This document shows, piece after piece, positions 13,750 to 19,056 of a DNA stretch of 47,304 bases; the first letter of the stretch is position 1; each line of letters starts with the position of its first letter. Both the position numbers and the translations under genes were made by a program. The stretch covers positions 1 through 47,304 of the forward strand of contig CACLDR010000011.1 of the NCBI GenBank assembly GCA_902605755.1, given 5' to 3'. The DNA comes from an uncultured Marinoscillum sp. (GTDB lineage Bacteria > Bacteroidota > Bacteroidia > Cytophagales > Cyclobacteriaceae). The notes beneath the pieces are model-generated. The model had not been told where the DNA came from and ran no database searches. It was given only the letters and a program-made list of their open reading frames with translations.

Positions 13750-14784
13750 TTAATTTTTGTTGGCTAGCTGCCCACAGGCCGCATCAATATCCTTTCCCCG
13801 ACTCCTTCTCAAATTTACGACAAGTTTCTTTGACTTCAAAAAATTTGCAAATTGATCCAATTTATATTTGGTCGTATTTTGATACTGAGCTTCAGTGATT
13901 TGATTGTATTCAATAATGTTAATTTTGGAAGGAATAGATTTAGCAAAATGCCATAAATCCTTAGCATCCTTGAGACTATCATTGAAATTATGGAAAACTA
14001 TATATTCAAAAGTAATCCGATTTCCTGTTTGTTGATAAAAATAAAGCAAAGACTCCTTCAATACCTCCAATGTATTGCTTTCATTGATAGGCATAATTTG
14101 ATTTCGCTTCAAATCATTCGCCGCATGCAAAGACAAGGCCAAGTTAAATTTGACTCGATCATCAGCAAGCTTAGTAATCATCTTTGCAATACCTGCCGTA
14201 GAAATCGTGATCCGCTTTGGAGACATGTTAAGCCCATCTAATGCAGTGATCCTCTCAATACCTTTTAAAATATTGTTATAGTTAAGTAAAGGTTCACCCA
14301 TCCCCATAAAAACAATATTGCTAAGCGGCAAATCAAAATGCTTTCGGGCTTGTTTGTCTATTTCAACTACTTGATCATAAATTTCCGCTGAATCTAAATT
14401 TCGCTTACGATCCATGTAGCCAGTAGCACAAAATTTACAACTGAGTGAACATCCTACTTGAGAAGAAATACAGGCGGTCATGCGATCCTCTGCAGGTATC
14501 AAAACCCCTTCCACCAAGCTTTTATCATAAAGAGCAAAGGCAAATTTTATGGTTCCATCATTCGACATTTGATCTGCTTGAACAGTGATAGGCAAAATAT
14601 CAAAATCTTCAGCCAACTGTGCTCGAATTGATAAGGGAAGATTGGACATTTCGGCAAAAGTATGTGATGACTTAACCCATAACCATTCCCAAATTTGTTT
14701 CGCACGAAACCGCGGTAATCTTTTTTTCAATACATAATCCCTCAATTCGTTCAGTCCTAATTTTCGAATATCCTTTTTCATCAT
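13750..14784 (-). CDS. rlmN: Dual-specificity 23S rRNA/tRNA adenine C2-methyltransferase
   Basis: RlmN is a radical-SAM enzyme that methylates C2 of A2503 in 23S rRNA and A37 of some tRNAs. The radical-SAM CxxxCxxC motif reads CSLSCKFCATG. The GMGEPLLNYNNI segment and the C-terminal RRSRGKDIDAACGQL, with the conserved methyl-carrying Cys, are diagnostic. The start was placed at the first Met of MMKKDIRKLG (14784), giving 344 residues, normal for the family. The open frame continues 24 codons upstream to 14856, but those residues are not typical of the enzyme. It converges with the mutL-rhomboid cluster, with only 2 bp between the stops and no hairpin terminator visible. Confidence 0.95.
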   Translation of the reverse strand: MMKKDIRKLGLNELRDYVLKKRLPRFRAKQIWEWLWVKSSHTFAEMSNLPLSIRAQLAEDFDILPITVQADQMSNDGTIKFAFALYDKSLVEGVLIPAEDRMTACISSQVGCSLSCKFCATGYMDRKRNLDSAEIYDQVVEIDKQARKHFDLPLSNIVFMGMGEPLLNYNNILKGIERITALDGLNMSPKRITISTAGIAKMITKLADDRVKFNLALSLHAANDLKRNQIMPINESNTLEVLKESLLYFYQQTGNRITFEYIVFHNFNDSLKDAKDLWHFAKSIPSKINIIEYNQITEAQYQNTTKYKLDQFANFLKSKKLVVNLRRSRGKDIDAACGQLANKN

Positions 14785-15498
14785 GGCGAAGATAGAGGAA
14801 TATATCATTATTCCACTTATCAGGTATATATCTCGTGAATAGATTCCCCGGATCATGAAAAGATCATTAACACTACCTAAAATTGAATAATGATGTCAGA
14901 AACAAATAATTCGCATAAAATATATAAATCTGGATGATTTTTTGTTTTAATAGAGTACTGCCCTCTAACCGGGTATTCTTATTTCTTGAAGATGATTAGT
15001 GTTATAATATTTTTACTTTCTCAGCACTTTATAAAAATAATTTAATTTATGAAGCTTATTACACCTAAGGTAAATCATTAGGTTACTGTTACATCATAGA
15101 ATAACCAATGTCAAATTTATCAAGATTTAATATTCCATTATTACATTGTCTCATTGCATTCTCCAAAGAAGTGAGGAAAACAAAATGGAAATAAAAACGT
15201 TAAAATGATCTTTCATAAAAAAATGATTACAATTCTAAAATTAATTTCAGTTCCAAAGAATACTAAAATATCAATTAATACAATAGAAAATTTTTTAAGT
15301 GGAATTGATCCCTTAAGTGTTTACTCCAAATAACAGTAATATCGCTTTTCAAAGTCATTTTATTATTATTAAACCCGCTGATTTTATCATTTTGATTGGC
15401 CTCAATGTTTTTTCTCAAAAATGTAAACGTCCTTTAATGCAGGTAACTCAATCACAAATTAATTTTTTATTGCTCTAGTTTTCGATAGATTAGCTGGC
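14785..15498. other. 714-bp AT-rich intergenic region
   Basis: This is the divergent region between rlmN and the TRAP permease genes. No tRNA, strong hairpin or conserved gene is seen. A TAAATTTG box lies on the minus strand (15112-15119), about 330 bp before rlmN. A 42-codon open frame at 15205-15333 (plus) has no recognisable features. A TRAP substrate-binding gene, which would be expected near here, is absent. Confidence 0.5.
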
Positions 15499-15993
15499 AT
15501 GAATTCAATCATAAATGGAATCCAATCTTTAAGTCGCTTCCTTGGAAGAACAATCTCGTGGAGCTCAATCATTTTGATATTTATAATAGTCTCGGATGTA
15601 TTTTTTCGTTATGCTTTTAGTTTAACCTCTGCAGCAACTTATGAGATAGAGTGGCATCTATTTGGCCTCATGTTTCTTTTGGGTGCTGCTTGGACCTTCG
15701 ATCAAGATAAACATGTCCGAGTAGATCTTTTTTATCAAAACTTTAGTCCAAAAATGAAAGCCTCAATAAATCTAATTGGCACATTAATTTTCTTAATCCC
15801 CTTTTGTTGGGTAACATTGATTACAAGCATAGATTTTGTCCAAAGTTCATTTTTACACAATGAAACAAGTCCAGATCCTGGTGGATTGCCCGCTCGATAT
15901 CTAATAAAATTGGCAATCCCCGTAGGTTTTGGCCTTTTGATACTTCAAGGTATCGTAGTCATTATCAATTCAATTAAAACACTGTTTAAATAA
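15499..15993 (+). CDS. dctQ: TRAP transporter small permease (DctQ family)
   Basis: DctQ is the four-helix small membrane subunit of TRAP transporters, which use a sodium gradient and a periplasmic binding protein to import carboxylates. The 164-residue product has four hydrophobic segments. It shows the family signature of a first helix with SWSSIILIFIIVSDVFFRY, then EIEWHLFGLMFLLGAAW and DKHVRVDLFY. The C-terminal helix follows a PGGLPARYLIK segment. Its stop overlaps the start of the large permease by one base (TAATG). No DctP binding protein lies on either side in this window, so the substrate is unknown. Confidence 0.9.
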   Translation: MNSIINGIQSLSRFLGRTISWSSIILIFIIVSDVFFRYAFSLTSAATYEIEWHLFGLMFLLGAAWTFDQDKHVRVDLFYQNFSPKMKASINLIGTLIFLIPFCWVTLITSIDFVQSSFLHNETSPDPGGLPARYLIKLAIPVGFGLLILQGIVVIINSIKTLFK

Positions 15994-17297
15994 TGTACGA
16001 ATTCCTTCCTATTATTTTTTTTATTATCACTTTTTTATTAATACTTACAGGCTATCCTGTCGCCTTCACTTTAGGAGGCATCGCCACAATTATTGGGGTT
16101 TGGGTATTTGACATTGATTTTTTCTATCTTCTTTCTCTTAGAATTTTTGGTACTATGCAAAATTTTGTCCTTTTAGGGGTTCCCCTCTTTATTTTCATGG
16201 GTATGATGTTAGAAAAATCAGGCATTGCTGAAAAGCTCTTGGAGACTATGGCCTTGTTATTTGGTGAATTTAAAGGGGGACTTGCACTGTCTGTGATTGT
16301 AGTAGGGGCTCTGCTTGCTGCATCTACAGGTATTGTTGGAGCAACGGTAGTCACTATGGGATTAATCAGCCTTCCCACCATGCTTAAACGTGGCTATAAA
16401 CCAACCCTTGCGATGGGAACAATCGCAGCTTCGGGTACCTTGGGACAGATCATTCCTCCTTCCGTAGTTTTGATATTATTGGCTAGTGTATTGAATGTTT
16501 CTGTTGGGGCTTTATTTCTTGCTGCAATCGTACCTGGTTTCTCCCTCATTGGTATGTATATGATTTATGTAATTATCTTTGCACATCTCTATCCAAAGCA
16601 GGCACCGGCAATGCCTTCTAAAGAAATTACTTATTTCCGAAGTAAGGGATTTTCTAAAGAAATCATTCAATCTTTTTTATTGCCCTTACTCTTGGTTGTA
16701 CTGGTGTTAGGAACCATTATTGGAGGAATCGCTTCTCCAACAGAGGCAGCGGGAGTTGGAGCAATGGGTGTGTTAATACTAACAGCCTATAAAGGAAAAC
16801 TTAATAAGAAAATTCTCACTTCAGTGACTAAAGAAACACTCGTACTCACTTCAATGGTTTTCATGATTCTCATTGGGGCCACGGCCTTTTCTCTAGTCTT
16901 TAGAGGGCTTCAAGGAGACAAGCTTTTTTTAGAGATAATCTCTAAATCTCATTTGAGCCCAAATGGTTTTTTAATTTTAGTCATGATAATGGTTTTTATC
17001 GCAGGGTTTTTTATCGACTTTATCGAAATCATATTCATTGTTGTTCCGATCGTTACTCCTGTATTTATCAGTATGGATATAGATTTAGTATGGATAGGCA
17101 TATTACTCGCCATTAACCTCCAAACATCTTTTTTAACACCCCCTTTCGGATTTGCACTCTTCTACCTGAGGGGCGTCACTCCTTCAGAGATTAAAACCAA
17201 ACAGCTCTATATTGGGATTCTTCCTTTCGTAATAATTCAAATCATATTTTTAGGCCTATTGATTCTTTTTCCACAATTATTGAAGGTTTTTCAATGA
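15993..17297 (+). CDS. dctM: TRAP transporter large permease (DctM family)
   Basis: DctM forms the transport path of TRAP systems. The 434-residue protein is almost wholly hydrophobic, with about 12 helices. It carries typical DctM segments: GYPVAFTLGG near the start, LGVPLFIFMGMMLEKSGIA, GTLGQIIPPSVVLIL, ASPTEAAGVGAMG and a C-terminal TPPFGFALFYLRGV. The length matches the family (about 425-440). It overlaps dctQ by one base, so the two are translationally coupled. The missing DctP may be encoded elsewhere, as happens in some genomes. The plus-strand unit ends here, with about 200 bp to the tRNA gene. Confidence 0.93.
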   Translation: MYEFLPIIFFIITFLLILTGYPVAFTLGGIATIIGVWVFDIDFFYLLSLRIFGTMQNFVLLGVPLFIFMGMMLEKSGIAEKLLETMALLFGEFKGGLALSVIVVGALLAASTGIVGATVVTMGLISLPTMLKRGYKPTLAMGTIAASGTLGQIIPPSVVLILLASVLNVSVGALFLAAIVPGFSLIGMYMIYVIIFAHLYPKQAPAMPSKEITYFRSKGFSKEIIQSFLLPLLLVVLVLGTIIGGIASPTEAAGVGAMGVLILTAYKGKLNKKILTSVTKETLVLTSMVFMILIGATAFSLVFRGLQGDKLFLEIISKSHLSPNGFLILVMIMVFIAGFFIDFIEIIFIVVPIVTPVFISMDIDLVWIGILLAINLQTSFLTPPFGFALFYLRGVTPSEIKTKQLYIGILPFVIIQIIFLGLLILFPQLLKVFQ

Positions 17298-17497
17298 GAG
17301 TTCAATATAGCCTAATATGAGATTATTTAACGTCAACTTCAATAAAACTATATCCTCCCTTGGATACAAATTTATATGTTATCAATTTCGTGCACCAATA
17401 ATTGCGAACCTTTCAGACAGAACTGCTTGGTATTAATAATCTGGCATATTACACAGCATATATCACTCTTGAATAATATCCGTCTTTTTAATTTTTG

Positions 17498-17572
17498 TCG
17501 GGATGACTGGATTCGAACCAGCGGCCCCCACTACCCTAAAGTGGTGCGCTAACCGGACTGCGCCACATCCCG
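17498..17572 (-). tRNA. tRNA-Pro with anticodon AGG
   Basis: A 75-nt cloverleaf on the minus strand. The acceptor stem is CGGGATG/CATCCCG, the D stem GCGC/GCGC with GG in the loop, the anticodon stem CCACT/AGTGG, and the T stem GCTGG/CCAGT with a TTCGAAT loop. The discriminator is A73 and the first pair is C1-G72, both typical of bacterial tRNA-Pro. The anticodon loop reads TTAGGGT, which gives AGG and not the common GGG or UGG. The 3' CCA is not encoded. A TAAGTTTG promoter box lies about 25 nt upstream. Confidence 0.93.
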
Positions 17573-17658: not shown

Positions 17659-19056
17659 TTACTCACTATGGACAAATACTTCATCCTTTATTGAGAGGCT
17701 TGCCCCTCCTTCGATCTGAAATATAAATTGGATCTCGTCCTCATTCATCCCCTTCGAATAAGGGATGAATGTCTTCAAATCTAAATCTAGAGCTATTTTG
17801 TTCGATAAGAACGATTTATTCAATCCCCGAGCAATACGGTCATCTAGCGAATAGAGAAAAGGACTCATGTTATAGCTTAACTGGTTCACTACATATTTTT
17901 CAATGGCCCGATGCATTGCCCAGTCTGTAATCTTTGCCCATCCTTCCATTTTGGTTAATTCATAGTCAAAAGCTGAAAATCGTATTACCAAATTTTCATC
18001 AATACTCGGCACTACAAACAAAGAAATAATTCCATTGATATCTCCTTCCACTGTTAAATTCCATCTCAAAAATCCCTCATGGGGGCTGATCTCAACCCCA
18101 TTTACTTTTGCAGCAATCCCGGCCAAATTTAACTCCTTCCCTACCAAGAGTAAATCCATCGCCTGCTCTATTTTCAGAAAAGAGAACCGGAGTTCAACAA
18201 AAGAACTGATCTGTGCATGCCTAGACAAGGGATTGGTCCTAAGTGGTAAAGCTTCCAACAATTGATGGCTGTTTTGCACATCGTTGATTCGGAGTATCGA
18301 TTGATGCTCAAGTTGGAAAAATAAGGTATCATTAATCTCGAATTTAACAAAACCACCCCTTAAATTGATGGCCTCATTGGTAAAATAAAAAGGCAGTTCC
18401 GTTGCTGATATATTCAATGGCTCTTGAATCGATCGATATAGCCTTTCTACTACTGCTCTTAAATTAATTTGGTCTTGAAGAATGGCATTGATAATTTTTT
18501 CTAAGGGCTTTTTATGTGTTTGAATCTCTTTTTCTATGAGTTCTGCCAAATCCATTTTCAAGCCCAAAACTGTAAAATTAGTCCCTTCAATCCATTTAAT
18601 AGTTCCCCATCTTGAATCAACCTCTATATCCCATCGTTCATCAATATTTAACTGCAGAGACAATTCAGCTTTAGCTTGAAGTTTAATAGGCCTTGCTGCA
18701 TTACTGACCGAAACGCCCAAGAGACGAGATTTGATAATCGCCGAAATATTTAAAGGTAAAGCCAAATGAAGACGCTCTTGGTAATATTCAATATCAATGC
18801 GTCCCTCACGCTTAATTTTTAAAAATAAGCTATCCTTTTTTTTATTCAAAGCAAACCCTCCATCGAATAATTGTTGACGCAAATTTTCGTTAATCCCTTC
18901 TTCTAGCTCAGCGATCGGCAACTTAATGAGGACATTGGTAAAAGAGGCTGGCACGGGTATTATCGCCCCCATTCTATCATCATTACCTCGACAACTTATT
19001 AAAAATATTAGGGAAGTCATTATCAATAAGCGAAAGTATAAGCCTAACTTTATCAT
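17659..19056 (-). CDS. DUF4403-family lipoprotein
   Basis: The 465-residue product has a type II signal peptide (hydrophobic residues about 5-20, lipobox LISC, then RGNDD) and so should be an outer-membrane or periplasmic lipoprotein. The mature part begins IIPVPASFTNVLIKLPIAELEEGIN. This matches DUF4403, whose members have two elongated lipid-binding-like (TULIP-type) beta domains. Repeated features such as ALPLNISAIIKSRLLG and LEHQSILRINDV fit long amphipathic strands. The function is unknown in the family; a role in lipid or detergent handling at the envelope is inference. The gene is divergent from the DUF6503 lipoprotein gene, sharing a 65-bp promoter region. Confidence 0.8.
   Translation of the reverse strand: MIKLGLYFRLLIMTSLIFLISCRGNDDRMGAIIPVPASFTNVLIKLPIAELEEGINENLRQQLFDGGFALNKKKDSLFLKIKREGRIDIEYYQERLHLALPLNISAIIKSRLLGVSVSNAARPIKLQAKAELSLQLNIDERWDIEVDSRWGTIKWIEGTNFTVLGLKMDLAELIEKEIQTHKKPLEKIINAILQDQINLRAVVERLYRSIQEPLNISATELPFYFTNEAINLRGGFVKFEINDTLFFQLEHQSILRINDVQNSHQLLEALPLRTNPLSRHAQISSFVELRFSFLKIEQAMDLLLVGKELNLAGIAAKVNGVEISPHEGFLRWNLTVEGDINGIISLFVVPSIDENLVIRFSAFDYELTKMEGWAKITDWAMHRAIEKYVVNQLSYNMSPFLYSLDDRIARGLNKSFLSNKIALDLDLKTFIPYSKGMNEDEIQFIFQIEGGASLSIKDEVFVHSE

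Follow-up and report, generated by a model that had tools for sequence, protein, structure and literature searches.

A proline tRNA with anticodon AGG that appears to stand in place of tRNA-Pro(GGG) in a branch of the Cyclobacteriaceae

Adenosine at wobble position 34 is nearly absent from bacterial tRNAs other than tRNA-Arg(ACG), the named exceptions being tRNA-Leu(AAG) and tRNA-Thr(AGT), and not tRNA-Pro(AGG) (PMC8007984). Among the closest described systems is the tRNA-Leu(AAG/IAG) of Streptococcus, other Lactobacillales and Oenococcus oeni, a natural A34 tRNA that serves a four-codon box beside a standard TadA; its editing has been shown in Lactobacillales (PMC11472039, PMC13249217). The tRNA-Thr(AGU) of Mycoplasma is also a natural bacterial A34 tRNA outside the arginine box, unmodified and found in reduced genomes (PMC11066159). 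Eukaryotic tRNA-Pro(IGG) is encoded with A34 in genomes that lack GGG, and is edited, together with several other tRNAs, by the heterodimer ADAT2/3. The AGG anticodon itself is known from laboratory constructs, namely a Salmonella mutant and orthogonal tRNAs in E. coli, which read both CCU and CCC (PMC11066159, PMC3711424). We found no description of a natural bacterial tRNA-Pro(AGG) in the open literature; earlier surveys of A34 may contain one, and tRNA databases will contain the genes.

The tRNA described here resembles the leucine case in that A34 outside tRNA-Arg(ACG) is conserved in a clade, the GNN isoacceptor of the box is lost, and TadA was found in nearly all the relatives sampled. 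It differs in belonging to the proline box and to Bacteroidota and in showing no shift in codon usage. Unlike the Salmonella and E. coli constructs, which are unedited in hosts with a TadA that tolerates no other base at 35, it is natural and conserved, and unlike the Mycoplasma tRNA it is carried mostly by genomes of 3-9 Mb that encode TadA. The absence of GGG recalls the eukaryotic case, but the family has only a TadA of the homodimeric type, and no other extra A34 tRNA was present in the two tRNA sets read. With the family's own tRNA-Arg(ACG/ICG), the classical TadA substrate, it shares A34 together with U32, U33, G36 and G37, whereas base 35 is C in the arginine tRNA and G in the proline tRNA. 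Extra A34 tRNAs are a known kind in bacteria; as far as we could find, what is new is an A34 replacement in the proline box of Bacteroidota.

The window, by which we mean the whole analysed stretch of 47,304 nucleotides, is contig 11 of a genome of an uncultured Marinoscillum sp. (1.76 Mb in 87 contigs, 68% complete). The tRNA gene, 75 nt long and without an encoded CCA, occupies 17498..17572 of the minus strand; ARAGORN calls tRNA-Pro (agg) at 17497-17572, and Rfam model RF00005 matches 17498-17572 over its full length with 60.4 bits (gathering score 29, E 8.7e-13) and no non-standard pair marked in the alignment, so that the tRNA fold is complete. The acceptor stem reads CGGGAUG/CAUCCCG, with C1-G72 and A73, and the anticodon arm CCACU-UUAGGGU-AGUGG, with U33, A34, G35, G36 and G37; the bacterial proline identity set (C1-G72, A73, G35, G36, G37) is therefore present in full. 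The anticodon lies at 17535..17537 (ARAGORN anticodon position 36), A34 being the complement of T at 17537. A preliminary description had proposed a complete cloverleaf and a tRNA-Pro with A34 and C1-G72/A73, and both proposals are borne out, as is its placing of the source among Cytophagales. The anticodon loop, UUAGGGU (17533..17539, minus strand), departs from the UUACGGC of the genome's own tRNA-Arg(ACG) only at bases 35 and 38. We infer that the tRNA is expressed, charged with proline and active in decoding. Its gene is flanked by the DctM gene of a TRAP transporter (DctQ and DctM, 15499-17297, plus strand) and by a gene for a DUF4403 protein (17659-19056, minus strand), and a gene for an RlmN-type radical SAM enzyme lies at 13750-14856 (minus strand); nothing bearing on the tRNA was found among the neighbouring genes in the window. 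Listing the proline tRNA genes of the genome, which the preliminary description had suggested, gave a partial answer: tRNA-Pro(AGG) is the sole proline tRNA among the 19 recovered tRNAs, which include tRNA-Arg(ACG), and no other, tRNA-Pro(UGG) included, was found in this 68%-complete assembly.

Comparison with relatives, likewise suggested there, showed that AGG is common to a large branch of the family. Proline tRNAs with UUAGGG in the loop were found in 27 of 60 sampled family genomes by a pattern search counted by hand, and the 18 read as whole tRNAs, from 18 genomes, all have an intact tRNA structure. At the levels of order and class, TTAGGG matches occurred in at least 11 of 148 and at least 11 of 247 genomes, respectively, lower bounds obtained with restrictive patterns; patterns that tolerate mismatches also retrieve TGG and CGG genes, and AGG counts therefore refer to TTAGGG matches only. 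Scanning a single genome for each species returned at least 120 stretches, all called Pro(agg) by ARAGORN and mostly from Cyclobacteriaceae, Flammeovirgaceae or other Cytophagales. Carriers include Dawidia, Ekhidna, Amoebophilus and the cultured Fulvivirga, Chryseolinea and Reichenbachiella. The preliminary description had held that its claim would lapse if AGG proved common in the clade and already described; the anticodon is indeed common, and the earlier account is what we did not find. Further carriers belong to Lachnospiraceae (Butyrivibrio), Succinivibrionaceae and Flavobacteriales (metagenome-assembled genomes), a spread that suggests several origins. The tRNA bodies from Lachnospiraceae and Succinivibrionaceae (L052, L054, L068, L053, L099, L149) are unlike that of the Cyclobacteriaceae, and on this sequence comparison their AGG tRNAs probably arose independently. 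A possible further type, with a UUAGGGG loop and a D-arm ending in TAGAGC, was seen as pattern matches in six genomes of one genus in another family of the class (G284, G317, G347, G376, G403, G430).

The tRNA-Pro(GGG) that would ordinarily read CCU and CCC was not encountered beside AGG. In a finished genome (G036) and a 99%-complete one (G041), tRNA-Pro(AGG) and tRNA-Pro(TGG) were recovered and tRNA-Pro(GGG) was not, in a tRNA search that scored 150 candidates per genome and missed some tRNAs such as tRNA-Ala(TGC); a separate proline pattern yielded no GGG in G036 either. Among the matches listed, none of 20 AGG genomes had GGG, bearing in mind that a divergent GGG could escape the pattern, and none of 19 genomes with an ARAGORN-confirmed GGG had AGG. 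The GNN isoacceptor of the proline box thus appears to be lost in the AGG-bearing relatives, the source genome itself being incomplete. The core of our explanation, which we hold to be very probable, is that tRNA-Pro(AGG) replaces tRNA-Pro(GGG) and decodes CCU and CCC.

The body of the AGG tRNA points to tRNA-Pro(CGG). The origin was judged by pairwise identities: with position 34 left out, mean identity to the AGG tRNAs was 83.8% for CGG, 79.8% for TGG and 74.8% for GGG, and CGG was the nearest isoacceptor for 17 of 18 AGG tRNAs, reaching 95% within one genome (G051). The loops agree, in that the UUAGGGA of the AGG tRNAs has U32 and A38 as do UUCGGGA (CGG) and UUUGGGA (TGG), a context lacking in the GGG loops (AUGGGGU or CUGGGGG). 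Since the AGG tRNAs are closest to CGG outside position 34, the simplest history is probably a change of C34 to A in a gene for tRNA-Pro(CGG), either the original or a duplicated copy, followed by loss of tRNA-Pro(GGG). A direct G34-to-A mutation of tRNA-Pro(GGG) is disfavoured, loop and body both matching CGG. The sharing of AGG across the family branch, the replacement of GGG and this affinity to CGG had all escaped the preliminary description. In several Flavobacteriales assemblies (L086, L093, L101, L104, L112, L119), genes for tRNA-Pro(AGG) and tRNA-Pro(CGG) adjoin within about 200 bases, a pattern such as tandem duplication would leave.

Codon usage gives some indication of the decoding role. 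CCC and CCU make up 21% and 43% of the 471 proline codons in long open frames of the window, and CCC, CCU and CCA are used alike in 10 AGG and 10 GGG genomes, a comparison based on 40 kb per genome in which a small effect would be missed. Because CCC usage is unchanged relative to that of the GGG-bearing relatives, tRNA-Pro(AGG) presumably reads CCU and CCC, with tRNA-Pro(UGG) taking CCA and CCG. No codon-usage signature of inosine was seen in these 20 genomes, which does not decide the chemistry of A34.

The candidate editing enzyme is widespread: nearly every relative sampled has a TadA-like protein, every score lying below the curated cut-off of the TadA model. None was found in the 68%-complete source genome, where two proteins were considered and dropped, one with a motif like that of dCMP deaminase (L037) and one of RibD length (L038). 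Residues are numbered here by what we take to be the E. coli TadA sequence, which agrees with the PDB alignment in the compared regions. H57, E59, C87, C90, D108, F148 and R153 are invariant in all 34 aligned TadA sequences from relatives; these are the catalytic positions and the reported contacts to the U33 ribose and to G36, the latter made by F148 and R153. By contrast, the positions of R26 and R152, two arginines that are suggested to hold E. coli TadA to C35 (PMC10586758), are mostly Gly and always Leu, Ile, Met or Val, respectively, as in S. aureus, whose TadA has a C35 pocket without base-specific contact. S. pyogenes TadA, which edits tRNA-Leu(AAG) (PMC11472039), aligns with Ala and Gly at these two positions in an alignment read by eye. 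To judge from these residues, the base-35 pocket of the family TadA looks permissive; since no position in the aligned relatives separates AGG-bearing from other lineages, such a pocket may be ancestral and unrelated to AGG. In the TadA of relatives (L211-L240, L274-L279) a stretch of roughly five residues near E. coli 123-127 is missing, whether the lineage has AGG or GGG, and the deletion is present in all 34 aligned sequences; this region holds the Asn with which S. aureus TadA contacts the 32-38 pair (PMC3711424). The native tRNA-Arg(ACG), read in three genomes, has the loop UUACGGC, with U32/C38 and not C32/A38. The proline loop shares U32, U33, A34, G36 and G37 with this loop, and departs from the U33-A34-C35-G36 that the E. 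coli and S. aureus enzymes recognise in having G35.

Not every account of the gene invokes a working replacement tRNA. An error of sequencing or assembly at position 34, which the preliminary description had named as fatal to its claim, might be suspected in a fragmented draft that is 68% complete, but the gene and its flanks recur in a congeneric genome (G041) at 83-84% DNA identity, and the AGG anticodon is found again in dozens of independent genomes; because the tRNA is identical in G041 and near-identical in many others, we reject an error and regard it as excluded for practical purposes. It seems very improbable that the gene is a remoulded relic, silent or not needed by the cell, and that CCU and CCC are left to tRNA-Pro(UGG). 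Relatives do have tRNA-Pro(UGG), and a U34 tRNA, whether unmodified or carrying cmo5U, is able to read four codons. The tRNA structure is nevertheless intact in the 18 family genomes checked and in at least 120 contig stretches, AGG and GGG occur complementarily among the matches listed, and CmoB gave no convincing match, weak matches only, in ten genomes, which makes a four-codon tRNA-Pro(UGG) less likely.

Given a replacement tRNA, A34 may be edited or may be left as it is; these are the two alternatives that the preliminary description had set out, and they are the right ones. The latter is a substantial possibility, to which we assign a little less than an even chance. It draws support from the orthogonal AGG tRNA in E. 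coli, which that host's TadA left unedited and which read CCU and CCC in a ratio of 56:44, with CCA and CCG at about 1% (PMC11066159), from a Salmonella proline tRNA mutated to A34 that, as cited in PMC3711424, read CCC almost like the wild type, and from Oenococcus oeni, in which two of four A34 tRNAs are edited according to the citation in PMC11066159. The preliminary description had supposed that an unmodified A34 would read CCN broadly; this is stronger than needed, given that the E. coli construct read CCU and CCC well but hardly read CCA and CCG, and that tRNA-Pro(UGG) is present in relatives. Also in keeping with an unmodified A34 are the lack of any TadA change that tracks AGG and the purine G35 where the native substrate has C35. 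On the other hand, E. coli is a poor guide because its TadA carries R26 and R152, both missing in the family, and the proline loop is close to the family's native TadA substrate. We slightly favour inosine, and our working explanation, held tentatively and at close to an even chance, is a replacement tRNA that decodes CCU and CCC with A34 edited by the cell's own TadA. On this explanation, once a tRNA-Pro(CGG) gene or its duplicate had mutated C34 to A and tRNA-Pro(GGG) had been lost, tRNA-Pro(AGG) would have served as the CCU/CCC reader in its stead; A34 would be deaminated to inosine by a TadA with a permissive base-35 pocket, and the IGG anticodon would read CCU, CCC and possibly CCA, with tRNA-Pro(UGG) covering CCA and CCG. 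A homodimeric TadA in part of the Bacteroidota may then edit a proline tRNA to IGG, in parallel to the eukaryotic expansion, enabled by a base-35 pocket that lacks both arginines of the E. coli enzyme and by deletion of the contact segment for the 32-38 pair, a proposal that we advance with the same reserve.

A branch with tRNA-Pro(AGG) beside sister genera that keep GGG, all with TadA, constitutes a natural experiment on the expansion of inosine decoding or, alternatively, on the reasons why an unmodified A34 is avoided elsewhere. It sets a bacterial TadA of widened range against an unedited A34 that is sufficient by itself. Separately, one of the genomes (G010, L036) contains at 1400-2414 an array of ten tRNAs within about 1 kb, made up of mixed tRNA-Ser(GCT) and tRNA-Pro(TGG) repeats, and a run of tRNA-Pro(TGG) in another genome (G049) resembles it.
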